Shown one piece after another: positions 6,859 to 61,922 of a DNA stretch of 64,000 nt. The DNA is from Flavobacteriales bacterium. GTDB taxonomy: Bacteria; Bacteroidota; Bacteroidia; Flavobacteriales_D; Sanyastnellaceae. Under the pieces are notes generated by a model. That model did not search any database, had not been told where the DNA came from, and worked only from the letters and a program-made list of their open reading frames with translations. The DNA is taken from contig JAKVAX010000017.1 in assembly GCA_022447625.1 (NCBI GenBank), positions 1 through 64,000 on the forward strand. Direction: 5' to 3'. Position 1 is the stretch's first letter. Each line of letters begins with the position of its first letter. The translations under genes were made by a program, and so were the position numbers.

Positions 6859-8751
6859 ATGAGTAAAATGACATTCGGAAAAACAGTGTTCGCTTCACTA
6901 GTAGGAAGCGCACTTTCATTCTTGGCAGTAGGACTGCTGTTGATCTTCATCGTAACAGCGATGATTGGGGCTGCGATTAGCGGTGCCATGCAGGATATTG
7001 AAGGAGGTAAAAGTGTCTCAGTCAAAGATCAATCTGTTCTTCACATTGAGTTAAACGACCCAATTGTGGAGCGTGGGAATGACAAAGACTTCAAATTGAA
7101 CTTAAATACATTCGAGCCTGAGGTGAGCTTGGGACTGAACCATATCCTAGAAGACATTGACGCGGCAGCGGGAGATGATCGTATTGAAGGGATCTTCCTT
7201 GATTTGAGTGGTGTGATGGGGGCTCCATCAACACTTCAGGATGTCCGCCAAGCGATTGTGAAGTTTAAGGAAAGCGGAAAGTGGGTAGTTTCTTACGGAG
7301 AAGGATACACACAAAGCGCTTACTACATCGCTTCAGCTGCGGATGAGGTTTACCTCTACCCAGAAGGACAAATGGAATTCTTCGGTCTGTACACAGAGCT
7401 GATGTTCTTCAAGAATATGTTGGATAAGCTCGAAATTGATGTGCAAATCGTCCGTGGTCCGGGTAACAAGTACAAGAGTGCTGTAGAGACCTTTATGTTG
7501 GATGAAATGTCGGAACCAAACCGTGAGCAGGTCGAGGCTTTCCTTGGTGATATCTGGAATCAGATGGTCATCGAAATGGGCGCTTCACGTAACCTATCTT
7601 CTGATCAACTCAACACACTAGCAGATAACCTTGAAATCGGATTGGCAGAAGAGGCAGTTTCAAATGGCTTGATCGATGGTTTGAAGTACCGCGATGAGAT
7701 TATTGATATGCTGCTTGAGCGTTCTGGACGAGCCATAGAGGAAGAAGAAAAAGAAGAAGGAGAGGAAGAGAAGAAACGTAAGTGGGATTTCTCCGATGAT
7801 GGAGAGGTTCGCTTTGTGACACTTCAAGATTACCACTTCGCTGGAGGTAAAACGGACTTCACGGAGGTGGAAGAGCCTTCTGACGATGAAGTAGCAGTTG
7901 TCTACGCTGTAGGTCAGATTGAAAGTGGGGAAGGTGATGATCAAACCATTGGTTCTGATCGAATTGCACGTGCCCTTCATGATGCTCGTTTAGACGACGA
8001 TGTGAAGGCAGTGGTGCTTCGCGTGAATAGCCCGGGCGGTTCCGCGCTAGCGAGTGACGTGATCTGGAGAGAAACACAATTGATCAAGGAAGCAGGCAAG
8101 CCATTTGTAGTTTCCATGGGAGACCTAGCAGCTTCAGGTGGTTACTACATCGCCGCAGGAGCAGACAAGATCTACGCTAACGAAAATACCATCACAGGTT
8201 CTATCGGTGTATTCGGCATCATTCCGAACATGGAGAAGATGTTTGAGAACAAGATCGGAATTACTTTCGATCGCGTGAGTACCAACGGTCACGCAGGAAT
8301 TCTGTCGGCTACGCGTCCACTTGCTGAAGATGAAAAAGAGTGGATTGATGAAATGATCGTCGACGTTTACGATGAATTCTTGCAGCGTGTTGCCGAAGGA
8401 AGAGGCATGACAACGGCAGAGGTTGATTCCATTGCTCAAGGTCGTGTTTGGTCTGGAACTGCGGCTAAGAAAATTGGTTTGGTTGACGAGTTTGGTGATC
8501 TAGAAGACGCTATCGCGGAAGCGGCTGCGATGGCAGAGATAGAGAACTACGAAGTGAAAGATCTTCCGCGCATGGTAGATCCATTTGAAGAGCTATTGAA
8601 GGAATTCGGTGCGACAGCCCAAATGAATGCCTTTATTGAAGAAACAGGAGTGGATGCTGTGTATATTGATCAAATGATGCAAGTGAAGAACATGGCTACC
8701 GGCGAAGAGATGATCCAAGCACACATGCCGTACTTCTTTGTGATCAAGTAA
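6859..8751 (+). CDS. sppA: Signal peptide peptidase SppA, 67 kDa type
   Basis: Membrane-anchored serine protease that degrades cleaved signal peptides. One N-terminal transmembrane segment (about residues 13-38) anchors it, with the catalytic part outside the inner membrane. The two tandem SppA domains of the long type are present. Lys206 in KYKSAVE and Ser426 in LAASGGYYIAAGA correspond to the Lys/Ser dyad. ITGSIGVFGIIPN follows the serine. The 630-residue length fits the 67K class. A Glu/Lys-rich linker (about residues 292-312) separates the domains. One copy of the TTCCGCGCTAGCGA word (8040-8053) encodes SALAS, and a one-mismatch copy is at 8508-8520. The TrmH-type gene starts two bases after the stop. 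Confidence 0.95.
   Translation: MSKMTFGKTVFASLVGSALSFLAVGLLLIFIVTAMIGAAISGAMQDIEGGKSVSVKDQSVLHIELNDPIVERGNDKDFKLNLNTFEPEVSLGLNHILEDIDAAAGDDRIEGIFLDLSGVMGAPSTLQDVRQAIVKFKESGKWVVSYGEGYTQSAYYIASAADEVYLYPEGQMEFFGLYTELMFFKNMLDKLEIDVQIVRGPGNKYKSAVETFMLDEMSEPNREQVEAFLGDIWNQMVIEMGASRNLSSDQLNTLADNLEIGLAEEAVSNGLIDGLKYRDEIIDMLLERSGRAIEEEEKEEGEEEKKRKWDFSDDGEVRFVTLQDYHFAGGKTDFTEVEEPSDDEVAVVYAVGQIESGEGDDQTIGSDRIARALHDARLDDDVKAVVLRVNSPGGSALASDVIWRETQLIKEAGKPFVVSMGDLAASGGYYIAAGADKIYANENTITGSIGVFGIIPNMEKMFENKIGITFDRVSTNGHAGILSATRPLAEDEKEWIDEMIVDVYDEFLQRVAEGRGMTTAEVDSIAQGRVWSGTAAKKIGLVDEFGDLEDAIAEAAAMAEIENYEVKDLPRMVDPFEELLKEFGATAQMNAFIEETGVDAVYIDQMMQVKNMATGEEMIQAHMPYFFVIK
8040..8052 (+). repeat. TTCCGCGCTAGCG word, copy 1 (in sppA)
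   Basis: Exact copy, followed by A (14-mer TTCCGCGCTAGCGA). Read here in the register TCC-GCG-CTA-GCG (Ser-Ala-Leu-Ala), right after the Gly-Gly of the SppA domain 2. Confidence 0.75.
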
Positions 8752-8753
8752 TC

Positions 8754-9302
8754 GTGAGAAGGAAATTAATACTAAGCGACCTCGGTCGCATGACTGAAAA
8801 CGCGTTTAAGGAAGCTAATAAGCTTCCTTTTCGCATTGTACTCGATAACATCCGCAGCGGAAACAACATTGGTTCGGTATTCCGAACGGCTGATGCGTTT
8901 CGTCTGGATCAAATTGTACTGGGAGGAATCACCGCGAAACCACCCCATCGTGATATCTCTAAAACCGCTATCGGCGCTGAGAGCAGCATGGCCTGGAAAC
9001 ACTATGAAGACTTGCCTGCACACCTGCGTTCAATGCAAAAGGAAGGCTGGAAAATTGCCGTGATCGAACAGGTGGAAGGATCAACGATGTTGGAAGACTG
9101 GAAGCCTTCCTCCGATGATAAGTGGGCCGTGGTGATGGGGAATGAAGTCAAGGGGGTAGCGCAAGAAATTGTTGACCTCGCAGACTTGGTCATTGAGCTT
9201 CCTCAATTTGGCACCAAACATTCTTTGAACGTTTCCGTATGCACAGGTATCGTCGTGTGGGAATACATGCGTTGCACAGGACTTTCGAGTTTAAATGTGT
9301 GA
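8754..9302 (+). CDS. TrmH/SpoU family RNA 2'-O-methyltransferase
   Basis: SPOUT-class methyltransferase acting on tRNA or rRNA ribose; the target base is not predictable. Motif 1, LDNIRSGNNIGSVFRTADAF (residues 30-49), contains the conserved Asn and the catalytic Arg. Motif 2 is WAVVMGNEVKGVAQEIVDLAD and motif 3 is LPQFGTKHSLNVSVCTGIVVWE, together forming the SAM-binding knot. The start is GTG, two bases after the sppA stop, so co-transcription is likely. The 182-residue length is on the short side because it lacks an N-terminal substrate-binding extension. The stop overlaps the next gene's ATG by eight bases. Confidence 0.9.
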   Translation: MRRKLILSDLGRMTENAFKEANKLPFRIVLDNIRSGNNIGSVFRTADAFRLDQIVLGGITAKPPHRDISKTAIGAESSMAWKHYEDLPAHLRSMQKEGWKIAVIEQVEGSTMLEDWKPSSDDKWAVVMGNEVKGVAQEIVDLADLVIELPQFGTKHSLNVSVCTGIVVWEYMRCTGLSSLNV

Positions 9303-10330: not shown

Positions 10331-10640
10331 AGTGGACTGTGGACCGTGGACCGTGGACTGAATATTCGCTGCGCTTTGCGCAACGTCTCTTTCTTCTATA
10401 ACGATGTAGAGATTGCCCCTTGGGCAATCTGGTTGAAGGGAGTTCGTAGTTCGTAGTCTTTGGACCGTGGACTGTGGACTGAATTTTTGTTGCGCCTTGC
10501 GCAACGCTTCTGACTATTATAATGATGTAGAGATTGCCCCGGGGGCAATCTGAATGAAGGGAGTTCGTGGTTCGTGGTACCTAGTTCGTAGTGAATGAAA
10601 AATCACAATTCACTTATCACGATTCATTATTAATTATTTC
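10331..10640 (+). repeat. Composite REP-like intergenic repeat, copies C1 and C2 in tandem
   Basis: Two units lie head to tail between convergent genes. C1: GTGGACTGTGGACCG words, hairpin 1 TGCGC-TTT-GCGCA near 10370, GTAG then hairpin 2 with arms AGATTGCCC/GGGCAATCT (10410-10430). C2: hairpin 1 GTTGCGC-CTT-GCGCAAC (10489-10505), GTAG, then hairpin 2 (10531-10551, loop changed to CGG). An AT-rich tail TCACGATTCATTATTAATTA follows at about 10617. Loop differences between units keep the stems intact, which suggests selection or mobility based on the palindrome. TACTGCCTACAGCTTAC (10652-10668) follows. Confidence 0.8.
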
Positions 10641-14212: not shown

Positions 14213-15207
14213 TTTCGAATGACCTTTCCGGTGATGGTTTCTTCAAATTGTGGATTGAACTCCACGTTTTTTGGGACTTCAAATCTATCTAGTGCTGCTT
14301 TCATTTGGCCATAGAGGTTATCAACATTTCTCGCAGAGGCCTCGATGACTAAAGTAACAGCACTGCCTAGGGTCGCATCAGGTCTGCCGATGACATAGAA
14401 ACGTTCAGTGATCAACGTACGTAGTTTCTCCTCAATGACTTCTGGCTGCAATTTGATGCCACCTGAATTAATGATGTTATCAGCACGCCCTAACCAGGTG
14501 AAACGATGTTCATCATGAAGATTGATCACGTCTGTGGTTTCAATCGTGCCAAGATGTGGCGTTTCTATGATGAGCGTGTTGTTTTCGCTAGCGCGGAATC
14601 GGACACCCGGTAAGGCTTGGAAAGAAGTACTTAATTCAGGAGATAGTTGTCTGGCTGCAATGTGTGTAATGGTCTCCGTCATGCCATACGTTTCAAAAGC
14701 TCGGACAGGTGTTTCATTCAGTGCTTCGATTAGTTGATCAGAGGCCGGCGCTCCTCCAATGATGAGCGTCTTAATGCTCTGGAAAGCGGGTGCTTCAAGT
14801 GAACACTCCACTTGCATAGGGGTCATGGCTACGAAGTCGAACGACGCACTTAATCCAGCCAGCGGATTTGAGCTAGGTGCAGTTACGTGCACATTCCATC
14901 CAGAATCAAGCGCGCGGTAGAGCATCATTCGTCCTGCAATCTTTGATATTGGCAAGCACAACAACACCTCAGCTCCTTCATCAATTTGAAAGAACGAACG
15001 TGTCATTCGAATGCTTTCCTTCACCGCTTCGAGTGAATGCGTGATGACCTTTGGTTGTCCGGTAGAACCGGAAGTGCTGATCTCCAGGTTCTTCTGATTA
15101 CGCCAATCTTGAAGCGCAGCATTGATTTCATTGACAAAGCTGTCGTCACCAGACAATTCTTCAGTGAGAGGATGGATGCGTTGGTTATGGAAGATCAGTT
15201 TGGCCAT
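14209..15207 (-). CDS. menE: o-Succinylbenzoate-CoA ligase (MenE-like, short form)
   Basis: Adenylate-forming enzyme that activates o-succinylbenzoate to its CoA thioester in menaquinone synthesis. At 332 residues it is shorter than the ~450-residue E. coli type, having a reduced N-terminal part, as in many Bacteroidota. Visible motifs are ISTSGSTGQPKVITHS (P-loop, about residues 43-58), FETYGMTETITHIA (A5), and FTWLGRADNIINSGGIKLQPEVIE (A7/A8 hinge). GKVIRK at the very end holds the A10 lysine. The gene overlaps menC by one base (TGATG) and rdgB by four. It contains one exact copy of the TTCCGCGCTAGCGA word. Confidence 0.92.
   Translation of the reverse strand: MAKLIFHNQRIHPLTEELSGDDSFVNEINAALQDWRNQKNLEISTSGSTGQPKVITHSLEAVKESIRMTRSFFQIDEGAEVLLCLPISKIAGRMMLYRALDSGWNVHVTAPSSNPLAGLSASFDFVAMTPMQVECSLEAPAFQSIKTLIIGGAPASDQLIEALNETPVRAFETYGMTETITHIAARQLSPELSTSFQALPGVRFRASENNTLIIETPHLGTIETTDVINLHDEHRFTWLGRADNIINSGGIKLQPEVIEEKLRTLITERFYVIGRPDATLGSAVTLVIEASARNVDNLYGQMKAALDRFEVPKNVEFNPQFEETITGKVIRK
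14586..14598 (-). repeat. TTCCGCGCTAGCG word, copy 2 (in menE)
   Basis: Exact copy on the minus strand, extended by A to the 14-mer (14585-14598). In menE it reads TTC-CGC-GCT-AGC-GAA (Phe-Arg-Ala-Ser-Glu), a different register from the copy in sppA. Confidence 0.75.
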
Positions 15208-16238
15208 CAGAAATCAAATTTCCATGATGCGTCGCCATAATGCAAGGCAGCATTCTTGACTTCCAGTGGTGAGTCAATGTTATTGTGGAAGAGACGTCCC
15301 GTCCCCAAACCTTGTGGTAGCGGATTTCCAGAGATGGCACACCATTGTGCAATGGCATTGAGGCCAACGTTTGATTCCAGTGCAGAAGTTGCCCACCATT
15401 GGATCCCACGCGATTCCGCGCTAGCGACAAAAGAATCAGCCACCCCCAAACCACCAATAAGACTTGGTTTGAGGATCAGGTACTGCGGCTTGATTTTGTC
15501 AAGTAGAGTATCAATATCCTCACAGTTAATGAGCTCTTCATCCAGTCCGATGGGAATTGGCGTAGCAGCGCATAGTTCAGCCATGGCCTCGTGCTGCCCT
15601 GCTTTGATGGGTTGCTCAATAGAATGAATATCGAAAGGGGCGAGGTCAATCAGTTTAGACAGCGCATTTTCTGGCGTGTAGGCTCCATTGGCATCCACCC
15701 GCAATTCGAAATCAGAAGCGGGATAGCGTTCTCTAAATTTTCTCAAGAAATCAAGTTCCAATTCATGATCTCTCGCGCCAATCTTCATCTTGAGGATGGA
15801 AAAACCTTCAGCAACGAGGCGTTCAATTTGAGTGAATAACCCTTCGTGATCGTCCATCCAGATCAACCCGTTCATCGGAATGTCTTGTTGTCCATTTGTA
15901 AAATTAGAAGGGTAGAGTTTGTATGGATTGTCGGCCTCATAACTTCTCACACAACACTCCATTCCGAAGCGCAAAGCAGGAAGGTGTTGCAGCCATGACG
16001 AATCGAATTTCGCTAAAGAAAATCGTTCGGTGTAAGACTGCAGGGTCTGCTCAATCTCGTCTTCGCGATCGATGCTGAGTGTGGGAATAGTAGAGCATTC
16101 ACCTAAGCCTATGCGCCCCTCGTTATCTTCAAGGATGAGAAACCATGAAGGTTTTTGCATCAAGGTATTCCGCGAAGTCTTTGCGGGAATTTTAAAATCC
16201 AGATCCTGGCGGATCCATCGGAAAGTGGGTTGACTCAT
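15207..16238 (-). CDS. menC: o-Succinylbenzoate synthase
   Basis: Enolase-superfamily dehydratase that forms o-succinylbenzoate from SHCHC. The 343-residue length fits. LKMKIGARD near residue 152 holds the KxK catalytic lysine; FELRVDANGAYTPENAL supplies the first metal aspartate; SIEQPIKAG and GLDEELINCEDID the next two acidic ligands; YLILKPSLIGG the second catalytic lysine. The start overlaps the membrane-protein stop by four bases and the stop overlaps menE by one, so the three are coupled. One copy of the CGCTAGCGCGGAA word encodes ASAE near residue 272. Confidence 0.95.
   Translation of the reverse strand: MSQPTFRWIRQDLDFKIPAKTSRNTLMQKPSWFLILEDNEGRIGLGECSTIPTLSIDREDEIEQTLQSYTERFSLAKFDSSWLQHLPALRFGMECCVRSYEADNPYKLYPSNFTNGQQDIPMNGLIWMDDHEGLFTQIERLVAEGFSILKMKIGARDHELELDFLRKFRERYPASDFELRVDANGAYTPENALSKLIDLAPFDIHSIEQPIKAGQHEAMAELCAATPIPIGLDEELINCEDIDTLLDKIKPQYLILKPSLIGGLGVADSFVASAESRGIQWWATSALESNVGLNAIAQWCAISGNPLPQGLGTGRLFHNNIDSPLEVKNAALHYGDASWKFDF
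15414..15426 (+). repeat. TTCCGCGCTAGCG word, copy 3 (in menC)
   Basis: Exact copy on the plus strand, followed by A. On the coding (minus) strand of menC it reads GCT-AGC-GCG-GAA (Ala-Ser-Ala-Glu). Confidence 0.75.
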
Positions 16239-19565: not shown

Positions 19566-21253
19566 TATATCTTGATTCGTTTTTTACTTGTTTTAAATGC
19601 TTGTTTCAGCACTTCATCGCTTGCGACATCTCTAGTAAAAACTTCCAGGATGGCGCATTGTTCTGAGGCGTAGAGGCTTTCTATACCTTGCTTCAGTTCC
19701 CTGCGATCTGAGGCTGAAATGTATGTGATTCCAAAATGCTTAGCGAGGTGCGAAGCATCTTGTGCGTGGCGTGTTTCGAAGACCGTTTCCAACGCTGCAG
19801 TACTCGACGGTCCGTCAATGATGCGGAAGATATTTCCGCCTCCATTATTGATGAGAACGATCTTCAGATTCGAAATGTCTTGTTGATGCCACAATCCATT
19901 GACATCGTAGAGGAATGAAATGTCACCACTGATGAGCGTCACTACTTTGTCAGTGGCTACAGCCATTCCTGCAGCGGTGCTGGTGCACCCGTCTATTCCA
20001 CTGGTTCCTCGGTTTCCGTAGTAAAGAATGTTTGAACGTTGCTCGAACAGTTGAATGTAGCGAACCACGCTGCTATTCCCCATCTGGAGAATACTGTCTT
20101 GAGGTAGCGCCGGAAGCACATCTTTGAAGACCTGCAGGTCACTCCAACCAGATTCTTCAGCAATCGATTGCTGAATCGCTTCCAGTTTCACGTGGCGATC
20201 ATACCACCTCGCATGGTAATCACTAGTCACCATTTCCGCGCTAGCGAGCACCCGGAAAAACTCAGAAGGACCGCAGCTTAACACTTCAGAAAGCTGTTTA
20301 AAGGTGTCCATGATTCTTCCGTCTTCATCAATGTGCCAATGTCCTTTAAGCGGTGTTTGGCGCAAGAATGCTTTAATTTTCTTCGAAATAATCTGACTTC
20401 CAAAAGTCACGAGTAAATCGGGTGCGAAACCATCGTGTTCACCGTTTTCAAGGGTCATCAGCAAACGGTCAATGCAACTGATGACTTCTCCTTCGGTGCA
20501 GTTAGACGTTGTCTCTGTAAGAACAACTACGTTTTCGCGGTTGGCAATCGCCGCCACAGCTTTTGTCAAGTCAGGATTCGGGAGATGATGCCCGGTGATA
20601 ATCATGATCTTTTTAAAGCCAGCTAGCTGTTCCTTTAGCTGGGTTTTCTGTGACTCGGTTAAGTGAGCCTCTGAAGGCTTTCGTTGAATGATGTTCGGTT
20701 GACTATCAGGAAACTCCACGAGTTCGTAAAGCGGCTCGCGCAACGGAATGTTCATGTGTACAGGGCCACGAACTCGACCTAGCGCCGTGAGCATGGCTTC
20801 ATTGATCATACGCTGGTTGTGCCATTTGACATCAGCGTGATCATCATCTTGTCTTAATTGAACGCTCTTACGAGCATGCAGATCAAGCAAGCCTTGTTGA
20901 CGAATCGTTTGTCCGTCACCCTGATCTACCCATTCCTCTGGTCGATCAGTCGACATGAACACCAATGGTAGATCTTGATAGTGAGCCTCAGCCATGGCTG
21001 GGCCATAATTGGCAGCAGCTGTACCAGAAGTACAGACGATACCTACGGCTTGTTGAAGTTCTTGAGCTAAGCCTAATGCAAAGTAGCCAGCAGCTCTTTC
21101 GTCAGGAATAACGTGGCAGGTAATTTCTGGATGATGGTAGAAAGAAAGCGAAACCGGCGCGTGGCGTGATCCAGGAGAAATCACTACATGTTGAATGCCA
21201 TGGGCGCTTACTATTCCTATAAGGTCTTGAATGACCGGTTTGTCGCTAATCAT
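19565..21253 (-). CDS. menD: 2-Succinyl-5-enolpyruvyl-6-hydroxy-3-cyclohexene-1-carboxylate synthase
   Basis: Thiamine-diphosphate enzyme joining isochorismate and 2-oxoglutarate. From the ATG at 21253 it has 562 residues. [14 protein letters not shown] (about 22-35) and [14 protein letters not shown] with the ThDP-activating glutamate are in the N-terminal domain; [29 protein letters not shown] follows; the C-terminal ThDP/Mg site is [14 protein letters not shown] ... [12 protein letters not shown] three codons upstream is an alternative start. It is coupled to menB and preceded by menF after a 12-base gap. It contains an exact TTCCGCGCTAGCGA copy encoding ASAE. Confidence 0.96.
20234..20246 (+). 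repeat. TTCCGCGCTAGCG word, copy 4 (in menD)
   Basis: Exact copy on the plus strand, followed by A. In menD (minus) it reads GCT-AGC-GCG-GAA (Ala-Ser-Ala-Glu) in LASAEM. Confidence 0.75.
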
Positions 21254-21265: not shown

Positions 21266-22243
21266 CTACAATTTTTCAATGGGACTCAAAAGGGCATTTA
21301 GCTTATGCCTGGTTTCATCCCATTCCTCGTTGGGCAGCGAGTCAAAGGTAATGCCGCCCCCGGTATATCCTAGTATTCCATTGGAATAGACTTCGAAGCA
21401 TCGAAGGTTCACATAGAAGTAACTATCTCCTTGGTCATCGTGCCATCCCAAATATCCTGTGTACCATTTGCGATCATGGTCTTCTAAGGCGGTGATGGCT
21501 TTGTACGCTGTATCTAAAGGTGTTCCACACACGGCAGGGGTGGGGTGCAATAGATCTAGGGTACGTGAAATGTCATCTGTTTTAAAGCGCAGCTCACTGC
21601 GAATATGCTCAAGATCGCCAAAACGCACTGTTTCCGGACGACTAATTCGGAGCTCTTCTGCACCGCCTTCTTTGAGTCGAGCCTTGATGTAATCAGTCAC
21701 GATTGATTGCTCAAGCGACTCTTTTTGTCCCCATGGAATCGTATCATCTTCGCACTTGCGCGTACCAGCCAACGACATCGTCTTGAATCGATTACCATCT
21801 GCAGAAACAAGAATTTCTGGGGTAGCTCCCATCCAACATCCTGCATCAGGATGGTAAAGACAGTATACAAAGGTGTTGGGGTGATTCGTTTTGAGGCTTT
21901 GCAGCCAATCAGCGCTTGGCTTCAAATTAGCCTTGAAGGTAATCGTTGAAAGCACCACCTTATCCAGGTCACTTTCAATGATCTGCTCAATGGCCTTTTT
22001 AATCTTTCGTTGGTGGCTTAGCTCTTGGGTTTCGCTAGCGTGGAACGCCTGAAGGCTTTGAAATGAGATGTGAAAATCAGCAAGGTCAAACGCGACTTTC
22101 TTTCCATTGAATTCAATGTGCTTTTCCGAAGACTGGAAGGGGGCGAAAAGAAAGTTCCCTCCAGTTCCGGCAGGGTCAACCGTGAAGAATGAGTCTTCGT
22201 GCGGTGGACTCCAGATTACAAATGGCGCTGTTTCTTCGCTCAT
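21266..22243 (-). CDS. menF: Isochorismate synthase
   Basis: Chorismate-utilising enzyme that isomerises chorismate to isochorismate, the entry into the menaquinone route. At 325 residues it is short compared with E. coli MenF (~430), lacking part of the N-terminal region, as common in Bacteroidota. The catalytic core is present: IESDLDKVVLSTI (lysine region), GATPEILVSADGNRFKTMSLAGTR, EQSIVTDYIKARLKEGG, HIRSELRFK, LHPTPAVCGTP and YTGYLGWHDDQGDSYFYVNLRC. It lies between the thioesterase gene and menD with short gaps, in one transcription unit. A near-copy of the 13-mer word occurs at 22033-22045. Confidence 0.93.
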   Translation of the reverse strand: MSEETAPFVIWSPPHEDSFFTVDPAGTGGNFLFAPFQSSEKHIEFNGKKVAFDLADFHISFQSLQAFHASETQELSHQRKIKKAIEQIIESDLDKVVLSTITFKANLKPSADWLQSLKTNHPNTFVYCLYHPDAGCWMGATPEILVSADGNRFKTMSLAGTRKCEDDTIPWGQKESLEQSIVTDYIKARLKEGGAEELRISRPETVRFGDLEHIRSELRFKTDDISRTLDLLHPTPAVCGTPLDTAYKAITALEDHDRKWYTGYLGWHDDQGDSYFYVNLRCFEVYSNGILGYTGGGITFDSLPNEEWDETRHKLNALLSPIEKL

Positions 22244-23572: not shown

Positions 23573-24202
23573 TTATTTCATACGAACGTAGATCACCTTT
23601 TTCGTTTCGAAGAACTCATTCGAAAAGTAGTTAGATAGCTGATATTCATCAACTTCCATCTTTGACTCTTTGATCTCTTCGCGAAGATCTCCCCCCTTTA
23701 AATAGAGGATTCCATTGGGAAATGGGTTCAGGTGTCGGTCTAAGAATTTGCCTTTGGTCCATGGAAGGAAACCGGCCAAGCGAGTCACGGCGCGTGACAC
23801 GATAAAGTCATATTTCCCCTTGTGATTTTCTGCTCTTTGCTGTTCCGCGCTAGCGTTTTTTAGACCTAATTGATCAATAATATCATTCACCACCTTAATT
23901 TTTTTTCCAATCGAATCAATCATATGGAAATGAACTTCGGGGTAAAGAATAGCGAGTGGAATGCCAGGAAATCCACCTCCGGTTCCAATGTCAAGTACTT
24001 TGGATCCGTCAGCAAATGGCATCACCATGGCAATACCAAGGGAATGTAAAACGTGATTGATGTAGAGTTGATCAATGTCTTTTCGCGAGACGCAATTGAT
24101 CTTGTTGTTCCAATCTGTAAAGAGCGGACCAAATTGGGCGAATTGCTCCTTTTGTTTGGAAGTGAGGTCGGGAAAGTGCGCTTCAATAAGCGTATGATCC
24201 AT
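23573..24202 (-). CDS. rsmG: 16S rRNA (guanine527-N7)-methyltransferase
   Basis: SAM-dependent methyltransferase acting on G527 of 16S rRNA; loss gives low-level streptomycin resistance in other bacteria. The 209-residue length fits. NKINCVSRKDIDQLYINHVLHSL (about 34-56) and the SAM-binding VLDIGTGGGFPGIPLAILYPE (about 69-89) are diagnostic; DFIVSRAVTRL carries the conserved SRA. The sigma factor gene ends two bases upstream of this start, so they share a transcript. An exact copy of the 13-mer word encodes ASAEQQ near residue 118. Confidence 0.95.
   Translation of the reverse strand: MDHTLIEAHFPDLTSKQKEQFAQFGPLFTDWNNKINCVSRKDIDQLYINHVLHSLGIAMVMPFADGSKVLDIGTGGGFPGIPLAILYPEVHFHMIDSIGKKIKVVNDIIDQLGLKNASAEQQRAENHKGKYDFIVSRAVTRLAGFLPWTKGKFLDRHLNPFPNGILYLKGGDLREEIKESKMEVDEYQLSNYFSNEFFETKKVIYVRMK
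23843..23855 (+). repeat. TTCCGCGCTAGCG word, copy 5 (in rsmG)
   Basis: Exact 13-mer on the plus strand, followed by T. In rsmG (minus) it reads GCT-AGC-GCG-GAA (Ala-Ser-Ala-Glu). Confidence 0.75.
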
Positions 24203-44185: not shown

Positions 44186-45560
44186 CCGCCTAAGCCCGGT
44201 TGTTTCGCGCATCGCGTTCATTCTGAGCCAATATGTGGCCTACCTATTCATGGGCTACGGCGTAGATCGATCAAACTTCTTCGAAGTATTTGTGGGCTTT
44301 GGCTTCCTCTTCGGAGGGATGATCATATTTATGCGACGCAAGCACGAAATGGGATGGAAAGAAATCTTCTGGATTGCGCTTCTATTCCGTTCAGCATTTA
44401 TTTTCAGTGAACCTCGATTATCTGATGATTACTACCGATTCACTTGGGATGGACTATTGACTGTGCAAGGAGAGAATCCTTACCTAATTCTACCACAAGA
44501 TTTCATCTCTGATGAGCGTGCCGCTGAATGGCAATTGGATGGGCTGTACGACGGATTAAATTCCAAACAATACTACACCGTTTACCCACCGGTGAACCAA
44601 ATGATTTTCGCGGCGAGTGTTTGGTTAGGTCAAGGCTCGTTAGCAGGTGCGGTCTTTTTCCTACACTTATTCATTCTGTTGGGTGAAGCGTTACTCCTTT
44701 TCTTGATCGCGCGACTACTCAGCTATTTTGAATTGCCCTATTGGTGGTCCATTGGTTACGCATTGAACCCCTTGGTCATCGTTGAGCTTTCCGGCAACGT
44801 CCACTTTGAAGGCATGGTGATGTCTTTCTTAGCCTTGAGCGTTTGGTTGGCTTGTTGTTTTCGCTATCGCGGAACGGCGATGCCTTTCTTAGGTGGGATT
44901 CCTTTTGCCTTAGCCGTATCTGTAAAGTTGACGCCGTTGATGTTGGTGCCTTTGGTTTTCGTGATCTTGAAACGCAGGGCATTCGGATTTGGAGCCATAG
45001 CGCTGTTCACGCTTGTGTTGACCTTTTTGCCGTTTTATTCTTCAGAATTAATTGCCCATTGGCAAACAAGTATAGAGCTCTACTTCAAGTCGTTTGAGTT
45101 CAATGCGTCAATCTATTACCTCGTTCGAGCCATAGGAGAGGCCATCCTTGGATATAATCCTATTCAGACTCTTGGACCTTGGATGTCACTGTTCACCTTA
45201 AGTTTGATCTTGCTCGTGGCCTTCTCCAGATGGAACAACAAAGGCACCCGGAAAGAACAAGTTGTTCGCTATGGAACGGCATTAACTTTGACCTATCTCG
45301 TTTACTACGCGATGACAACAACCGTGCATCCGTGGTATATTACGATGATTTCCGCCGCTGCGGTATTCTCCAATCGCAAGGCCATCTGGTTCTGGAGCTT
45401 CCTGGCCGTATTCAGTTATGCCCATTATGATGGGGGTGGATTTCAAGAGAATTACTTCTGGATCATTGCGGAATACGTGATTCTGGCTGCGGCACTTTTA
45501 GCTCCGCTACCGATCAAAGAAGCATTTAGTAAAAAGGTGCTTAACGGATGGCGCGAATGA
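44178..45560 (+). CDS. Polytopic mannosyltransferase-like GT-C glycosyltransferase (GT87/DUF2029 type)
   Basis: A 460-residue membrane protein with about 12 helices that starts at a TTG inside the upstream gene. LSDDYYRFTWDGLLTVQGENPYLI (about 76-99) is the GT-C style acidic periplasmic loop of polyprenyl-phosphate-dependent transferases. ISAAAVFSNRKAIWFW and repeated hydrophobic segments complete it. It probably moves a hexose from a lipid-linked donor to an acceptor outside the inner membrane, which suits the polyprenyl-phosphate glycosyltransferase two genes upstream. Its last 20 bases overlap the 3' end of the convergent FGase-DUF1704 gene. A one-mismatch 13-mer is at 44862-44874. Confidence 0.82.
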   Translation: MLNRLSPVVSRIAFILSQYVAYLFMGYGVDRSNFFEVFVGFGFLFGGMIIFMRRKHEMGWKEIFWIALLFRSAFIFSEPRLSDDYYRFTWDGLLTVQGENPYLILPQDFISDERAAEWQLDGLYDGLNSKQYYTVYPPVNQMIFAASVWLGQGSLAGAVFFLHLFILLGEALLLFLIARLLSYFELPYWWSIGYALNPLVIVELSGNVHFEGMVMSFLALSVWLACCFRYRGTAMPFLGGIPFALAVSVKLTPLMLVPLVFVILKRRAFGFGAIALFTLVLTFLPFYSSELIAHWQTSIELYFKSFEFNASIYYLVRAIGEAILGYNPIQTLGPWMSLFTLSLILLVAFSRWNNKGTRKEQVVRYGTALTLTYLVYYAMTTTVHPWYITMISAAAVFSNRKAIWFWSFLAVFSYAHYDGGGFQENYFWIIAEYVILAAALLAPLPIKEAFSKKVLNGWRE

Positions 45561-47544
45561 TGTAATCGTAGATTGGATTGTTCTCCTCAGTGCGTGGCTC
45601 CACGATAGCGCGTGATAGATACTTCGGTTGCTTCAAAATTCCTCGCTCAATCATTTCTAGGATGGTTCCATAGTGCTCCAAAGAAGTCTTGCCAATAAGC
45701 AACGGCCGAAGATCATTTCCTTCATTCCAGAAGCGATACATTTCGCTCAATCCTCTGAGGTATAAATGATCTTTGGTGAATCCTCCGCCGCGGTAGATGC
45801 GTGTGGTCAAGTAGAACGCTTCATCTACATCCATCTCTAAGTCATTGACCATGGTGCGGTAGGTCTTCTTGAAATCAGCTCCTTTCACCATCATGTCGGT
45901 GGCAATCACGCGCTGACCCAATTCCTTTAGACGGCGTAAGGTGATGTTTCCGCTCAAGTACTCAGACAGAACGGCCAATCCTTCTTGTGTCATCGTGTTC
46001 ACCGGAAAGCCTAGGTTAAACACCTTCAATGGCTGAAGATTACTGTTCATGGTAGTCACCATGTGCACACCAATCTCGTGGTGCACAAGGAATCGCAGTT
46101 CCTTCGGACGGAAAGTCGCGCCTTTCTTAATCAAGACCTTCTTCTGATGGTTGATCACCATCGCGTCAGCCACCATATTCCGAGAAACTTCAATCTTTCC
46201 CTTGAAGCCGTATTCTTCGAAACTCTCTTTAAATAACTCCACTGCTTCTGGTACACCCAATCTCGGTTCCGCGGTAGCGACTTCAACCTCTGGAAGATGC
46301 TGAAGGAACCACGCATTCTTCAGGTCCTTTTCAGAGGGCTCACCGAAATAGCGCATGGAGTTGTACAAGAACTTACTGCTGCCAATAGATGAGAGCATGT
46401 CGATCTTGTCGCTGAAGGCATTGATCACATCTTGGTAAAGACGTTGGATATGCACATCCGTGATCTTCTCAATCTCCAATCGGTGAATCTTCCGTTTCAG
46501 TTGGAAAGGATCGAATCCAATTGGCTTGTATTCGAATTGTGGGTTGATTGTACAACGTGACTCAAAGAATCGTTTCTTCTCTTGAGCTACGTTGATGGGA
46601 TTTACCATAGATAACAGCTCGAAATTCTTCAACAATTCATGCAGTGCTGAATCTACCTCGAGAATCGCTTCCTGAAGATCATTCGAGAGGAGGCGACCTT
46701 GTTTCTTATGTTCCCAATTAGTGAACTCTCGTGCAAAGTCATGCGCGTGATTTAGAATGGCACGCTTGAGCTGTCCCTTGATTGAAGTGATGACTGCAGG
46801 GAATGGCTCAGCCGTTTCTTCGTTACAGTAGATCTTCGAAACTTCGGTCGCAAGAACTAAGGTGTTGTCGAAGCTTTTGGTAATGAAGGCAAGGTTGTAC
46901 CCGCGTCCGAAGAAAGTATCATTGATAGCAGCGCGCTGTGGGATGCCGTTAGGCAACTCAATATCTGAGAGTTGACCACGCCACTTTTCCACGCTAGTGC
47001 CAAAGCGATCATTATCAATACGCTCAGAACCAATATTCCAAACAGGTACTTCACGATCCCAACGACGCCAATTGTAAGAGTGCATGTCGTAAACCACACA
47101 AGCGCCGAAAAGCTCTTCTAGCTTGGCGATCAGTGCGTATGTCACTCGATAGTAAGCGTCATGCTTCTTGCGCGAACGTTCGCGTTCGGCTTTGGTCAAG
47201 GCTCGTTTCCAGACCTTTTTACCCCAAGCCTCTTCATAGACACAAGTCTCAGGTTCTCGGTTGAGATCATATTCAAAACGGCTATCCAAACCAATCAGTT
47301 TGATCGGCATGGAAGAAATGAAGGCACCGGTATAAGGGTCTTCTTCGTACCAGCGTTCAAATTCCGAAAGGCGCGTTTTGATCTTCAGCTCATCGCGAAA
47401 GCGATGACCATCATGAATGGCCGTGCATACATACGGCACGTATTCGTTAATCGAGATCCTAAAACCAGCATCACTGCTTTCCGCCTCAAAGGTTAGTCCC
47501 TCTTGGATGCGGCGAATGATCTCTTCACAACTTAGTTTACGCAT
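45541..47544 (-). CDS. Fused N-formylglutamate amidohydrolase-like / DUF1704 (QEGLA) metallopeptidase
   Basis: A 667-residue two-domain protein. The N-terminal ~290 residues resemble N-formylglutamate amidohydrolase: AIHDGHRF near residue 43, YDMHSYNWRRWDRE near residue 154, with a conserved DxHS. The C-terminal part is DUF1704, the 'flavohemoglobin expression-modulating QEGLA motif' family: a gluzincin-type HEIGVH at 489-494 and Glu521 in TMTQEGLAVLSEYL as a third metal ligand. Eukaryotic relatives are the MATCAP tyrosine carboxypeptidases. It is probably cytoplasmic, as no signal is seen. The start lies inside the ATP-grasp gene's end (eight-base overlap). The substrate is unknown; see the finding on this pair. 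Confidence 0.85.
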   Translation of the reverse strand: MRKLSCEEIIRRIQEGLTFEAESSDAGFRISINEYVPYVCTAIHDGHRFRDELKIKTRLSEFERWYEEDPYTGAFISSMPIKLIGLDSRFEYDLNREPETCVYEEAWGKKVWKRALTKAERERSRKKHDAYYRVTYALIAKLEELFGACVVYDMHSYNWRRWDREVPVWNIGSERIDNDRFGTSVEKWRGQLSDIELPNGIPQRAAINDTFFGRGYNLAFITKSFDNTLVLATEVSKIYCNEETAEPFPAVITSIKGQLKRAILNHAHDFAREFTNWEHKKQGRLLSNDLQEAILEVDSALHELLKNFELLSMVNPINVAQEKKRFFESRCTINPQFEYKPIGFDPFQLKRKIHRLEIEKITDVHIQRLYQDVINAFSDKIDMLSSIGSSKFLYNSMRYFGEPSEKDLKNAWFLQHLPEVEVATAEPRLGVPEAVELFKESFEEYGFKGKIEVSRNMVADAMVINHQKKVLIKKGATFRPKELRFLVHHEIGVHMVTTMNSNLQPLKVFNLGFPVNTMTQEGLAVLSEYLSGNITLRRLKELGQRVIATDMMVKGADFKKTYRTMVNDLEMDVDEAFYLTTRIYRGGGFTKDHLYLRGLSEMYRFWNEGNDLRPLLIGKTSLEHYGTILEMIERGILKQPKYLSRAIVEPRTEENNPIYDYIIRAIR
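46267..46280 (+). repeat. Near-copy of the 14-mer: TTCCGCGGTAGCGA
   Basis: One mismatch from TTCCGCGCTAGCGA (G for C at position 8), inside the FGase-DUF1704 gene. The variant TTCCGCGGTAGCG recurs on the other strand at 49363-49375 in the PNGase F-like gene. Confidence 0.5.
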
Positions 47545-48718: not shown

Positions 48719-51700
48719 ATGCTAAAGAGAGCGATCCTAGGGCTGCTTGCAGTTTTCGCGAGCACTGCGATGATGGCCGATCCCGGTGATACACTGGTGG
48801 TACAGACCTACACATTCGAAGATCAAAACAACCCGGATACTAATTATGATAGTCCGGGTAGACGTACCTTCACATTCCCTGAAAATGACGGTACGACGTA
48901 CCAAAAAATCCTGATGTACTATACCCTGAAATGTTTCGAAGACGGAACAGCAGGAGGTCTCGGGTTCCCTTGTGGAGAGTGGGATTATCTAACCTACAAT
49001 TACCTCTACGATTACACAGGAGTGCTAGACTCGAATTTCTTGACGCATCCTTTCATGTTGATCGATAATCAAGATTTTGAAACACAAGATCTTGTGGTTG
49101 ATCCGCTCTACAATTTTATTCAGTACGATTACGAAATCGCGAATGAAGTCACTGTAGAGAATGAAGTGATGGTTACGTTCGCTGAAGATGGAACGGTGAA
49201 TCCGGCCCCAGTTCGAACAGATACGCACCGCAGCCGTTTTCAATTCTTATACACAGCACAAGAGTTGTTAGATATGGGGCTGACTGCTGGTGAGATTGGC
49301 TACATCGAACTTGAAATTGATGATGCGTGGGATTTGGCAGACCTTCTTCGTTTGAAAGTTGGCGCTACCGCGGAAGAAGATTTGACCTCTTGGTATGATG
49401 GAGATATGACCGAAGTTCGCGTAGGTGAATTTATGCCTGGCGGCGAAGGGTGGTACCCGTTCCAGTTCACGGAAGCCATCATGTGGGATGGAATGAGCTC
49501 ATTGGTATTTGAATTAAGTGCGCATGTAGAAGAAGCTCTTTCTCCGACGCAATTCAAAGGGGTGAACTCTACGATCAACTCTGTTTCGGCAGCGAGCAAT
49601 GATCGCTATATCGCGTTCAATAACGTAGACGAGGTGAAAGTTCCAGGAGAGGCTTTCGCTGGCGTACAAGATGAAATTACCATTGCCTTTTGGGTGAATG
49701 GAGATGAAGATATTCAGCCGAGCAACAGCACAGTATTCGAAGGCGTAAACAGCAGCAACCAGCGCGTTGTGAATAGCCACCTTCCATGGGGTAATGCTCG
49801 TGTGTACTGGGATGCTGGTCAGTCAGGAGGCTACGATCGCATCGACAAAGCAGCGAACACCGCTGACTTTGAAGGACGATGGAACCACTGGGCATTTACC
49901 AAGAATGCAGTAACGGGTGAGATGTACGCGTACTTGAACGGAGAACTCTGGCATTCAGGAACAGATCGCTTCCGTACGATGGAAGACATTGTGAAGTTCA
50001 GTATTGGTTCGGCTGCAGGTTGGTCAAACTTCTACAACGGAAAGATGGACGAATTCGCCATCTGGGATGTAGCCCTCAACGAGGAAACAATCGCTGCTTG
50101 GATGAACCGTTCAATTACAATGGATCACCCGAACTACGATGACCTAGTGGTTTACTACGACTTCAATGAAGTGAACGGAGAACCTGTACTTGATCACAGT
50201 GGAAACGGATTTGACGCAGCTCCGCACGGGGCTCCAGATCGCCAGTATCACAATGGAGATGATCTATTCTTGAATCCTGAATTGGTGGCATTCCGTCCTT
50301 CAATTCAAATCCAACAAGGAGATTACACGATTAACACAACTACAGATAGCTACACAGAACAAGTAATGGTAGCTCCAGTTTCGGTGTCATCATGGGATGT
50401 AGAGAACTACGATGTATATGTTACAGACATTGATTACTACTGGCTTCCTCAAGACACTTATGTATACGACGAGGATGGGAATATTTTAGAAACGATTCCT
50501 TTCGAAGGAGATGCGGTTCCATTTGTAAACCAAACGCTAGAATACTACGGTGCTCCTTATGAAGTAGTTGATCGCTATGAAATCGGACGATTCATCACTC
50601 CGTACGGAATCAACCTTGATCTAGAAGAAGGGTGGACTTGGATCTTCGATGTTACCGATTACGAGCCATTACTTCATGGAGAGGTAGAGCTTGAAGCAGG
50701 AAACTGGCAAGAGCTATTGGATATGAAGTTCATGTTCATCGAAGGAACTCCTCCACGTGACGTGAAGCGAGTAGAAGCATTCTGGAAGGGAACATACAAC
50801 TTGAACTCCTTTGATGACAACGTAACGGCCTATCAGATTGATGTAGAAGAAGGGGAGGAGACTTTCCGTTTAAAAACGCGTGCTTCTGGACATGGCTTCG
50901 GACAAGGAAACAACTGTGGCGAGTTCTGTTACAACACGCATTCAGTGAAAGTGAATGGTGAAACACAGTGGAGCTGGGAAATCATGCAGGAATGTGCAGA
51001 TAACCCTCTTTACCCACAGGGAGGTACATGGATCTACGACCGCGCTGGTTGGTGTCCGGGAGCTCCTGTGAAAACTCAAGACTTTGAATTGACCCCACTT
51101 GTAGACAACATGGATTCGTTCACCGTTGATTACGACATCGAATATGATCCGGACGGGAACTACCGATTCGAAGGACAAGTAATCGCCTACGGAGAGCCAA
51201 ACTTCACCACGGATGTGGAAATCGAAGAAATCATGGCGCCTAGCGATATGCGCATCTTGAGTCGTATGAATCCAATTTGTGATGATCCAGTAATCCGCAT
51301 TAAGAACAATGGTTCTGCGCCATTGACCAGCTGCGAGATTACCTATGGTATCGGTGAAAACATGAATACGTATACCTGGACAGGTGAACTTGGGTTCCTA
51401 GAGTCTGAAGACGTGACGGTGAGCTACGATGATCCAGGGTTCTGGAATGGCGACGAAGAAGAAGTGTTGGTTTTCGAAGCAACCGTAACATCTGCCAACG
51501 GTGTGACTGATGACAACCAGTTTAACAACCACGCAACATCAACATTCAATCGTCCACCTGTGTATACCTATGGGGATGAAGATGACAACCGCATCATCAT
51601 CTGGACAAAAACGAACAACACACCTTGGGAGACGGAGGTCCGTATTGAAACAATGAACGGAACAACAGTTTACTTGCGTGATGATTTCGATGAGGCCAAT

Positions 51701-56899: not shown

Positions 56900-58075
56900 A
56901 TGAGTGATTCTCGCTACCAACAACGCGGAGTTTCCGCATCCAAAGAAGACGTCCACGCAGCCATTAAGAACGTGGATAAAGGTCTATTCCCTCACGCCTT
57001 CTGTAAGATCGTACCTGATACGCTAACAGGCTCTGATGAGCACTGTATTGTCATGCACGCTGATGGAGCAGGTACGAAGTCCTCACTGGCTTACATTTAC
57101 TGGAAGGAAACAGGTGATGCTTCCGTGTGGAAAGGAATTGCGCAGGACGCCCTCGTGATGAACCTCGATGACCTCCTTTGTGTAGGAGCTACAGATAACA
57201 TCTTGCTTTCTTCTACGATCGGACGAAACAAGCATCTCATTTCGGGTGAGGTCATTTCTGCTATCATTAATGGTACTGAAGAGTTGCTTGACGAGCTAAG
57301 GTCTCAAGGCATTGGCATCAAGTCAACAGGTGGTGAAACTGCTGATGTAGGCGACCTCGTTAGAACCATCATTGTTGATTCTACGGTTGTGTGTCGTATG
57401 CGTCGTGATGAAGTCATTGACAATGCGAACATTGCGCCAGGACAAGTCATCGTTGGACTATCTTCTTTCGGGCAAGCGAACTACGAGACAGAATACAATG
57501 GTGGAATGGGAAGCAATGGCCTAACATCTGCCCGACACGATGTCTTCCATAAGGTATTGGCTGATCGTTACCCAGAAACTTATGATCCAGATGTACCAAA
57601 GGATTTGGTTTACACTGGTAGCAAACAACCTACGGAAGCGGTCGAAGGTGTCCCAGTAGACGCTGGTAAGTTGGTTCTTTCTCCAACGCGTACTTATGCG
57701 CCTGTGATTAAGGCGATACTTTCGAAGCACCGAGATGCAGTTAAAGGTATGGTACATTGTTCAGGAGGAGCTCAAACGAAAGTGCTGCACTTTGTGAATG
57801 ACGTTCATGTCATCAAGGACCAACTATTCGACTGTCCTCCCTTGTTCAAATTGATTCAAGAGCAATCAGGTACAGATTGGAAAGAGATGTACAAAGTCTT
57901 CAATATGGGGCGCCGTATGGAGATTTATACTGATGCCGCTAGCGCGGAAGCGATGATTGAAATTGCGAACTCATTTGGAGTTGAGGCGCAAATCGTCGGA
58001 CGCGTGGAAGAAGGTTCAGGCAAGCACCTGACCATTTCTTCAGAGTTCGGAACCTTCGAATACAAAGAAGCTTAA
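56900..58075 (+). CDS. purM: Phosphoribosylformylglycinamidine cyclo-ligase family protein (AIR synthase-related)
   Basis: ATP-dependent cyclisation of FGAM to AIR in purine synthesis. The 391-residue protein is longer than E. coli PurM (345) and of the Bacteroidota subtype. HADGAGTKSSLAY (about 52-64), QDALVMNLDDLLCVGATDNILLSSTIGRNK, GIKSTGGETADVGDLVRTIIVDSTVV, and PGQVIVGLSSFGQANYETEYNGGMGSNGLTSARH are the AIRS motifs. A CSGGAQTKVLHFVNDVHVIKD stretch and FNMGRRMEIYTDA follow. It lies four bases before prfA, so prfA and pyrF may share its transcript. It has an exact 13-mer word encoding ASAE near residue 349. Confidence 0.9.
   Translation: MSDSRYQQRGVSASKEDVHAAIKNVDKGLFPHAFCKIVPDTLTGSDEHCIVMHADGAGTKSSLAYIYWKETGDASVWKGIAQDALVMNLDDLLCVGATDNILLSSTIGRNKHLISGEVISAIINGTEELLDELRSQGIGIKSTGGETADVGDLVRTIIVDSTVVCRMRRDEVIDNANIAPGQVIVGLSSFGQANYETEYNGGMGSNGLTSARHDVFHKVLADRYPETYDPDVPKDLVYTGSKQPTEAVEGVPVDAGKLVLSPTRTYAPVIKAILSKHRDAVKGMVHCSGGAQTKVLHFVNDVHVIKDQLFDCPPLFKLIQEQSGTDWKEMYKVFNMGRRMEIYTDAASAEAMIEIANSFGVEAQIVGRVEEGSGKHLTISSEFGTFEYKEA
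57937..57949 (-). repeat. TTCCGCGCTAGCG word, copy 6 (in purM)
   Basis: Exact 13-mer on the minus strand. In the purM frame (plus) it reads GCT-AGC-GCG-GAA (Ala-Ser-Ala-Glu). Confidence 0.75.
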
Positions 58076-60541: not shown

Positions 60542-60629
60542 TGTATAGTTGATTTAACGCACACAAGATAATCATTCGCGTCCATAAAACGCTTGTCGAA
60601 CCAGTCTTAGCTCTTCCCATCTTCGTTAT

Positions 60630-61922
60630 ATGAACGAAGACTACCTACAGTATTTGTGGCGTTTCCAACAGCTTGGAAATACCCAATTAACCACCACTTC
60701 AGGCAAAGATGTCAGTGTGTTATTTCAAGGCCACTGGAATCGAAATGCCGGACCGGATTTCCTTGAGGCTAAACTTCGAATCGGAAAAGAACTCTGGATT
60801 GGGAGTGTTGAGATCCATCTACGATCTTCTGACTGGCGAAGGCACCATCACGCGCATGATCCTGCCTACCAAAATGTGATTTTACATGTGGTGTATGAAG
60901 ATGATGAGCCACTGGTCAATGCAGCAGGGCAGGAAGTACCTACGCTTATCGTTGAGCGTCATTTGGACAGCGATCATTACAACTACTACTGCCATTTTGT
61001 TGAACACCATTCCGCGCTAGCGTGTGAAAAGAACTTAGGAGAAGTAGATGAATTCAAACGTAACAATTGGCTTCACCGCATGGCCATTGAACGATTGGAA
61101 AGACGAACAGAACGCGTGAAGGCATTGCTCGAACGCTACCATCAAGATTGGAACGCAGTGTGGTGGCATATGCTCTGCCGGTCATTCGGCTTCGGATTAA
61201 ATCAAATCGCCTACGAACAATTAGCCATGACCTTGAATTGGAAGTGGCTCGCTAAGATGGTTGGGAATCCGCAGAAGATTGGAGACGTGTTGCTTTGCCA
61301 TTCCTCTTGGATCGAATTAGATAAACGACTGGAGTCACATCAAAAGCCACGTGAAAACTACCAACACTTTCAGCGTTTGCATGAGGTGACTCCTATAGCT
61401 CCTTCGAATTGGCGTCGGGGTAAAATGAAACCCGCAAATCACCCCAGGGTGCGGCTCGGACAGTTGACTGCACTCATTGAAAATGGCTGGTTGCAGTGGA
61501 GAATAGCCAGCATGTGTGAAGACCTAGATGAACTAATGAAGGTACTTGATGTTAGTATTACAGTTGATCGCCTCACGCTTCAGTTAGAAGCACGTGAAAC
61601 AGCACGAATAGGAAGGGCAGCACGAGAGCGCATTATTACCAATGCGATTATCCCTGTTGTTTTCTATTTCGGAAGACTCCACGGAGATCAAAAGCTGATT
61701 GATCGAATGCTCGATTGGCAAGACCGACTAAAACCAGAAGACAATCGGATAATCCGAATGTGGACGCAGACCGGATGGAAACCGCGAAGCATGCTCGAAA
61801 CGCAAGGACAACTCCATTTATTCGAGCAATATTGCAGCGGAAAAAAATGCTTATCTTGCCTCATTGGGATTACACTGTTGAATGACCACAAAAATGATCC
61901 AACGAATACTCGACATCTTTGA
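60630..61922 (+). CDS. DUF2851 family protein
   Basis: A 430-residue soluble protein of the DUF2851 family, common in Bacteroidota. The N-terminus NEDYLQYLWRFQQLGNTQLTTTSGKDVSV, then FQGHWNRNAGPDFLEAKLRIGKELWIGSVEIHLRSSDWRRHHHAHDPAYQNVILHVV are the family signature; the acidic and histidine-rich pattern resembles a nuclease-like site (GPDFLEA...GSVEIH), which is only a suggestion. The C-terminal part has FFLxCS-like KKCLSCLIGITLL. The gene overlaps the PspC-like gene by 41 bases. It has an exact 13-mer word near residue 129. Confidence 0.85.
   Translation: MNEDYLQYLWRFQQLGNTQLTTTSGKDVSVLFQGHWNRNAGPDFLEAKLRIGKELWIGSVEIHLRSSDWRRHHHAHDPAYQNVILHVVYEDDEPLVNAAGQEVPTLIVERHLDSDHYNYYCHFVEHHSALACEKNLGEVDEFKRNNWLHRMAIERLERRTERVKALLERYHQDWNAVWWHMLCRSFGFGLNQIAYEQLAMTLNWKWLAKMVGNPQKIGDVLLCHSSWIELDKRLESHQKPRENYQHFQRLHEVTPIAPSNWRRGKMKPANHPRVRLGQLTALIENGWLQWRIASMCEDLDELMKVLDVSITVDRLTLQLEARETARIGRAARERIITNAIIPVVFYFGRLHGDQKLIDRMLDWQDRLKPEDNRIIRMWTQTGWKPRSMLETQGQLHLFEQYCSGKKCLSCLIGITLLNDHKNDPTNTRHL
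61010..61022 (+). repeat. TTCCGCGCTAGCG word, copy 7 (in the DUF2851 gene)
   Basis: Exact 13-mer on the plus strand, followed by T. Reads TCC-GCG-CTA-GCG (Ser-Ala-Leu-Ala), the same register as the copy in sppA. Confidence 0.75.

Follow-up and report, generated by a model that had tools for sequence, protein, structure and literature searches.

Introduction

To our knowledge, uptake sequences are known from two proteobacterial families. Chi and the FtsK-orienting polar sequences (KOPS) are short duplex or single-stranded DNA words without a stem, and the promoters of phage N4 are folded single-stranded DNA sites. In this work we describe a repeated word of 13 bases, TTCCGCGCTAGCG, from a 64,000-nucleotide stretch of a Flavobacteriales bacterium of the Sanyastnellaceae (GCA_022447625.1, contig JAKVAX010000017.1, positions 1 to 64,000; hereafter the window) and from the draft genome that contains it (G000, 3.9 Mb in 76 contigs). 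The word is abundant and polar, its stem covaries, its copies arose by substitution and are maintained, it has no strand bias, it is found in lineage dialects, and it co-occurs with a filament locus in four genomes of the family.

Within the Bacteroidota, Riemerella columbina prefers its own DNA, and the k-mers ranking highest in it are A/T-rich and of unproven signal function, according to part of one report (PMC7965970). Among the matches listed, our literature search returned no uptake sequence of Bacteroidota, no hairpin uptake sequence, no related word, and not the 8-mer CGCTAGCG contained in the word described here.

Abundance and Polarity

The exact word has 371 copies in G000 (201 forward and 170 reverse) and the reversed pattern has none on either strand; with base 8 left free the count is 667 (360 and 307), and that of the reversed control 0 and 1. 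The polarity claimed in the original prediction, which had been made from the window alone, was confirmed, and the word was rightly placed among genome-wide signal words. Sampling 373 genes (418 kb) with 60 within-gene synonymous shuffles as control, we counted 49 exact copies, where the shuffles gave 0.23 on average and 2 at most, and 101 hairpins with any of five named stems, where they gave 1.27 on average and 4 at most. In these genes the word is far in excess of codon-preserving shuffles, so the outcome that the original prediction had named as its refutation did not occur, and this excess is thus caused neither by protein sequence nor by codon use. It agrees, as do the three codon registers SALA, ASAE, and FRASE, all of which were recovered, with the earlier claim that protein conservation does not explain the word.

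The arrangement of the hairpins was also analyzed in G002, a relative with 93-94% identity to the window over the first 19 kb queried. Their spacing in G000 and G002 is compatible with an exponential distribution (n = 218, mean 3.76 kb, Kolmogorov-Smirnov p 0.46), with a density of about one per 3.8 kb. A strand bias along the replichores, which the original prediction had proposed to look for, is absent: in 735 kb of G002, taken relative to GC skew, 90 copies lie on the G-rich strand and 103 on the other.

The Word Is a Mini-Hairpin with a Covarying Stem

The architecture that is strongly supported is a polar mini-hairpin formed by the head TTC (sometimes TCC), a stem of 3 bp, the loop GNTA, whose second base (base 8 of the word) is free, and an A-rich tail. 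For the analysis of the stem, all TTC-NNN-GNTA-NNN sites were taken, selected by head and loop alone. The stem CGC/GCG was found in 90 of 460 sites in G000 (474 kb) and in 137 of 674 in G002 (736 kb), and the next stems are all paired, GGC/GCC (10 and 20 sites) and CAC/GTG (8 and 10). One-step variants of CGC/GCG with both sides changed and paired numbered 22 in G000 and 39 in G002, and those with one side changed 9 and 4; the totals, 61 versus 13, add the two genomes, and a few sites are the same place in both. Pairing was also present in sites without any CGC or GCG half, 35 of 350 in G000 and 54 of 523 in G002, whereas 2000 shuffles gave 6.1 and 8.7 on average and never more than 14 and 18, respectively. 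In both genomes TTC was the most stem-paired of the 64 heads, followed by TCC, and GNTA was the most paired among the loops with at least 20 sites. The closing C-G pair of the stem is almost invariant. The flanks of the GGC, CAC, CTC, and CCC stem sites are unrelated (largest pairwise identity 0.5), so the hairpins with these non-dominant stems are separate sites that did not come from the copying of a longer repeat.

Between recognition as duplex and recognition as folded DNA, the stem covariation points to the folded strand, and at the level of sequence it shows a presumptive reader of folded DNA. Four stable DNA tetraloop motifs, d(cGNNAg) and d(cGNABg) among them, are reportedly named in the title of Nakano et al. 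2002. As far as that title goes, C(GNTA)G fits the former motif, and the loops of G058, a genome from another genus that is described below, fit the latter. The palindrome CGCTAGCG, which the original prediction had regarded as the conserved core, did not hold in that role, given that loop base 8 and the letters of the stem vary while the pairing is retained.

Maintenance and Origin of the Copies

Word copies are better kept than the neighbouring DNA. Over 88.7 kb aligned between the two genomes, 21 of 22 hairpins of G000 are identical in G002 and 21 of 24 hairpins of G002 are identical in G000, compared with 36-37% of the control 13-mers of the same phase nearby (P 8.5e-9 and 4.5e-7). For the origin of the copies we used G001, a member of the same genus with about 64-71% identity in matching pieces of the first 19 kb queried. 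A protein of G001 could be aligned at 8 of 15 window sites, and in 7 of these the alignment runs ungapped through the word; the eighth, at 20234, has a one-residue gap just beside the word. At 8040 the peptide SALA is unchanged in G001 and is written with different codons. Taken together, the ungapped proteins and the recoded SALA indicate that the words arose by substitution and not by insertion.

The registers were analyzed in 270 sites, with the G002 stretches that align to G000 excluded. Antisense phase 2 is the dominant register (157 sites), followed by sense phase 0 and sense phase 2 (35 each), antisense phase 1 (18), and antisense phase 0 (3); no site is in sense phase 1, and hardly any in antisense phase 0, because TAG lies in frame there. 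In total, 178 sites are antisense to the gene, 70 are sense, and 22 are intergenic. In a first sample, 15 of 170 copies were intergenic, and 91.5-92.8% of the DNA counted was coding. The dominant register is also the commonest among background sites with 3 mismatches in word-free relatives (59 of 194), though less strongly. Position -2 is C in 60% of all 270 sites. In the sites outside the dominant register a generic A-rich stretch persists, with A at 0.53 in positions 14-20 versus 0.35 in positions 25-45. A 3-base periodicity of A on the 3′ side of the word was considered as a filament-binding signature and discarded, since it is the codon phase of the dominant register.

Relatives and Dialects

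A search in close relatives, proposed in the original prediction, revealed that the word is lineage-specific and has related dialects in another genus of the family. In 399 genomes of the order, sampled from a larger group, TTCCGCGNTAGCG was counted 667 times in G000 and 770 times in G002; none of the remaining 397 has more than 3 copies, and G001 has one. The other genus (g7), with G008 and G058, carries an orthologous filament locus (50% identity to the G000 secretin, 50-51% to the ATPase) and words of its own. Its word CATTTGSCGAATGSC has 440 copies in G058, 70 in G008, and no more than one in any of the 112 further genomes of the family. The 70 copies listed (35 of the 440 and 35 of the 70) are all GGC-GAAT-GCC or GCC-GAAT-GGC, with no mixed forms; among ten single chance copies in other genomes, 4 are mixed. 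Of the 59 ATTT-NNN-GNAT-NNN sites in 89 kb of G058, 27 have a paired stem, whereas shuffles gave 8.0 with a maximum of 15; one-sided near forms number 3. G008 has the further hairpins GCC-GAA-GGC and GCC-GGA-GGC.

The hairpin words have GGCAAATG in common with another word of G008, GCACAAGGCAAATG. Copies of the G008 word are also seen as intergenic inverted pairs about 32 bases apart (stretch L132, contig 5, near 11334-11559). Uptake sequences occur as inverted pairs in terminators.

No comparable dispersed word was found in the ATPase-free genomes G007, G010, and G013 (50, 38, and 60 kb scanned), and the scan of G001 (80 kb) gave only words with alike flanks, coming from longer repeats. Dispersed longer repeats lie in the G001 stretches L071-L074, with 25-28 copies on both strands in the 80 kb and a mean flank identity of about 0.84. 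A hairpin-aware scan gave high scores also in G001, G007, and G013, but these came from local or long repeats with one or two stems and not from a multitude of exchanged stems; the scan missed the mixed hairpins of G008.

The Filament Locus and Competence Genes

Among 40 relatives searched, a full-length PilB/GspE-type ATPase (PF00437, E 1e-116 or lower) was detected in G000, G002, G008, G029, and G034, and none was detected in G001. Among the 114 genomes of the family it is present in five: G000, G002, G008, G058, and G077. The word and the full-length ATPase are found together in G000, G002, G008, and G058, and both are missing in G001. In G000 and G002 the locus comprises, above the Pfam cut-offs, a pilin of 133 amino acids, the ATPase, a secretin, and a T2SSF protein. 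A prepilin peptidase (21.1 versus 26.5 bits) and a second N-methyl pilin (16.7 versus 21.2 bits) fall below the cut-offs, and the two proteins at the PilM/N and PilO places match no Pfam family. The 133-residue pilin passes the cut-off of Pfam ComP_DUS (28.9 versus 27.3 bits) and matches solved type IV pilins, mostly via its N-terminal half. ComEC is present in 38 of 40 relatives and DprA in 8 of 8 tested; both were considered as discriminating partners of the word and rejected as too widespread. In G002 an open reading frame of 3529 amino acids directly adjoins the locus (L116:2928-13517).

Copies in the Window

The original prediction had reported seven exact copies and six near-copies with one change, and all of them were recovered at the same positions and on the same strands (Table 1). 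The 13 matches with at most one mismatch compare with a mean of 0.05 and a largest value of 2 in 100 dinucleotide shuffles. Four copies in the window carry the additional A, in agreement with the earlier count. All 13 copies lie within open reading frames, in line with their description as intragenic; that at 22033 is inside the frame 21266-22243, and the gene at 38997 is uncertain because two opposite frames overlap there. The label of near-copy needs amending: the positions were correct, and five of the six are full members whose sole difference is at the free loop base. The sixth, at 22033, has a broken stem pair, and the corresponding G002 site is intact.

Table 1: Sites of the word and its hairpin variants in the window.
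Positions	Strand	Form	Gene or reading	State in G002
4273..4285	+	Hairpin TCC-CGC-GGTA-GCG, variant head TCC		
8040..8052	+	Exact word TTC-CGC-GCTA-GCG	Gene 6859-8751 (SppA), reads SALA	
8508..8520	-	Word with loop GATA		Identical
14586..14598	-	Exact word	Reads FRASE	
15414..15426	+	Exact word	Antisense, gene reads ASAE	
20234..20246	+	Exact word	Antisense, gene reads ASAE	
22033..22045	-	Near-copy TTC-CAC-GCTA-GCG, stem pair broken		Intact
23843..23855	+	Exact word	Antisense, gene reads ASAE	
35379..35391	-	Altered but paired stem TTC-CTC-GCTA-GAG		Identical
38997..39009	-	Word with loop GTTA	Two overlapping open reading frames	Identical
44862..44874	-	Word with loop GATA		Identical
46267..46279	+	Word with loop GGTA		Identical
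46987..46999	+	Altered but paired stem TTC-CAC-GCTA-GTG		Not conserved
49363..49375	-	Word with loop GGTA		Identical
57937..57949	-	Exact word	Antisense, gene reads ASAE	
61010..61022	+	Exact word	Gene reads SALA	

A domain search of the window proteins found type IX secretion domains, and of the 8 nearest named loci 7 carry the label Flavobacteriales; both place the organism in this order. Other clusters of short repeats lie at 159, 5274-5360, 10332-10638, and 41714-41815, with units that include GTCCACAGTCCA, GGACCGTGGAC, and the complement of GGGGCAATCTCTA; the repeat part of 10332-10638 has many matching places in G002. A perfect palindrome of 16 bases, GGCACGCATGCGTGCC, is present at 11 places in 735 kb of G002 (stretches L051-L070, L103-L108, L113-L122, and L124) and at 2 in 474 kb of G000.

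Interpretation

We give about an even chance to the word being a genome-wide self-DNA signal of natural transformation that is read as folded DNA. This is the best explanation because the words and the ATPase co-occur in four family genomes and neither is present in G001, and because words that are polar, form dialects, and lie mostly within genes look like uptake sequences. DNA uptake had been one of several purposes named in the original prediction and is the leading one here; we infer that the reader of the hairpin belongs to DNA uptake, and likewise the step at which it would act. Copies would arise in genes by ordinary substitution, mostly in registers of low protein cost, and would then be kept. 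A type IV filament system with ComEC and DprA would prefer hairpin-bearing DNA, and related DNA would be taken up or processed in preference to foreign DNA. The word would have the role that uptake sequences have in Neisseria and Haemophilus, except that a hairpin would be recognized. This might happen when the DNA is single-stranded on its way into the cell, or once a protein has extruded the hairpin from the duplex.

Somewhat more tentatively, at a little short of even, we propose a new class of self-DNA signals, in which each genome has hundreds of mini-hairpins inside its genes. These would be under selection as folded single strands of DNA, their stems changing by compensation, and would be read by a type IV filament-linked uptake system in Bacteroidota. 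Their dialects would keep the architecture (T-rich head, C-G-closed stem, and loop GNTA, GNAT, or GNA) and change the letters. If true, a hairpin-coded uptake signal in Bacteroidota would be a different way of telling own DNA, and natural transformation would become testable in a large marine group. It would also be a rare instance of secondary structure of DNA, not RNA, under genome-wide compensatory selection inside genes. Should uptake prove to be wrong, it would still be worthwhile to find a reader of DNA mini-hairpins that has several hundred selected sites in each genome.

Several points weigh against a role in transformation. Known uptake receptors bind duplex DNA, and for this reason the covariation of the stem is unexpected. 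The folded DNA is only modestly stable: on the TTC strand the G000 forms give -2.4 to -2.7 kcal/mol, with z of about -1.5, and on the opposite strand -2.5 kcal/mol, so that with nearly equal energies the folding program does not pick a strand; the G058 forms give -4.4 kcal/mol. The filament locus is not clearly a competence pilus: NCBIfam leaves pilus and type II secretion unseparated, the PilB and GspE models giving similar scores, and for the secretin the GspD model outscores that of PilQ. The 22 matches listed for the pilin among solved structures do not include ComP and, with one full-length PF00437 protein each in G000 and G002, no PilT-type ATPase is seen. The competence of these bacteria is itself putative. 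The independent cases of co-occurrence are few because only two genera carry the words, and no word was found in G029, G034, and G077 (188, 214, and 96 kb, including the hairpin-aware scan) despite their full-length PF00437 ATPase; the filament secretins of these three have 31%, 32%, and 22% identity to that of G000. Finally, the commonest word of G008, GCACAAGGCAAATG, with 138 copies (69 + 69, control 0), does not form this hairpin.

The three genomes with filament ATPase and no detected word fit a hairpin that instead binds a DNA-hairpin or single-stranded-DNA-binding protein for repair, recombination, replication restart, or nucleoid organization, the link to the filament being coincidental. 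The random spacing fits this too, and the covariation would show a reader of folded DNA without naming it. We consider such a protein unlikely, though to be taken seriously, given that words and ATPase are shared by four family genomes and both missing from G001, and that the lack of strand bias is unlike what replication-coupled use predicts. A duplex site read by a symmetric dimer, with matching half-sites that merely resemble a stem, would account for the perfect palindrome CGCTAGCG of the C-loop form and for two arms that are always symmetric in position. Independent half-sites, however, predict many mixed sites, and one-sided variants are rare in G000 and G002 and absent from the listed G058 and G008 copies; head and loop, moreover, are conserved yet not symmetric, and this dimer seems improbable. 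That the hairpin acts in transcripts is suggested by the prevalence of intragenic copies, mainly antisense; but neither orientation is uncommon, the background in word-free relatives has the same dominant register, and the loops GNTA and GNAT fit the DNA tetraloop motifs as that title names them, which makes an RNA-level signal quite improbable.

The enrichment of CGCTAGCG, the top 8-mer in the window and in the samples of G000 and G002, recalls the highly iterated palindrome 1 (HIP1) of cyanobacteria and could come from a methylase or a repair bias. The A, T, and G loop forms and the other paired stems are not this palindrome and yet are enriched and kept, and head and tail are conserved. A free loop base and exchanged complementary stems are a poor fit to a fixed-sequence methylase site, so neither the likeness to HIP1 nor the stress on the palindrome in the original prediction was upheld; the palindrome-centred reading, lacking its fixed core, was discarded and is very improbable. 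A word of the Chi or KOPS type, serving recombination or the segregation of chromosomes, would likewise be polar, genome-wide, and present in many copies, but in the 735 kb of G002 the strands are evenly used and words of that type have no stem, so this suggestion, also made originally, is disfavoured and extremely improbable. Hardly probable at all, lastly, is an inserted mini-element like the repetitive extragenic palindromic (REP) sequences of REP-associated tyrosine transposases (RAYT): a short head in front of a hairpin is reminiscent of REP sequences, but the G001 proteins are ungapped at all but one of the aligned window sites, intergenic copies are few, flanks are unrelated, and Y1 transposases do not track the words. 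These transposases were rejected as readers, with one in G000, one in G001, and one weak partial match in G002.

Comparison with Known Systems

Like HIP1, the word is highly repeated and intragenic, and its commonest form contains a palindrome of 8 bases; unlike HIP1 it is polar, its loop base is free, and its paired stems are exchangeable. With Chi and KOPS it shares polarity and genome-wide distribution, and it differs in the lack of strand bias and in the covarying stem. With REP/RAYT it shares the short head before a hairpin and the many copies, and it differs in being mostly intragenic, made by substitution, and independent of Y1 transposases. Recognition of a small DNA hairpin is also described for the integron attC sites (in part of PMC6393395) and for the N4 promoters; the word differs from both in its hundreds of chromosomal copies inside genes, with no integrase or phage polymerase implicated. 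The likeness is broadest with the DNA uptake sequences (DUS) of Neisseriaceae and the uptake signal sequences (USS) of Pasteurellaceae, which share with the word the hundreds of polar copies on both strands and the lineage dialects, the intragenic bias being stated here for our word. Its A-rich flank is like that of USS, and it goes with ComEC, DprA, and type IV filament genes that may correspond to the pilus genes accompanying DUS and USS. From these it is set apart by a stem that covaries, as in hairpin recognition, by a lower density of about one copy per 3.8 kb, and by its host among the Bacteroidota, in which its role in uptake is putative.

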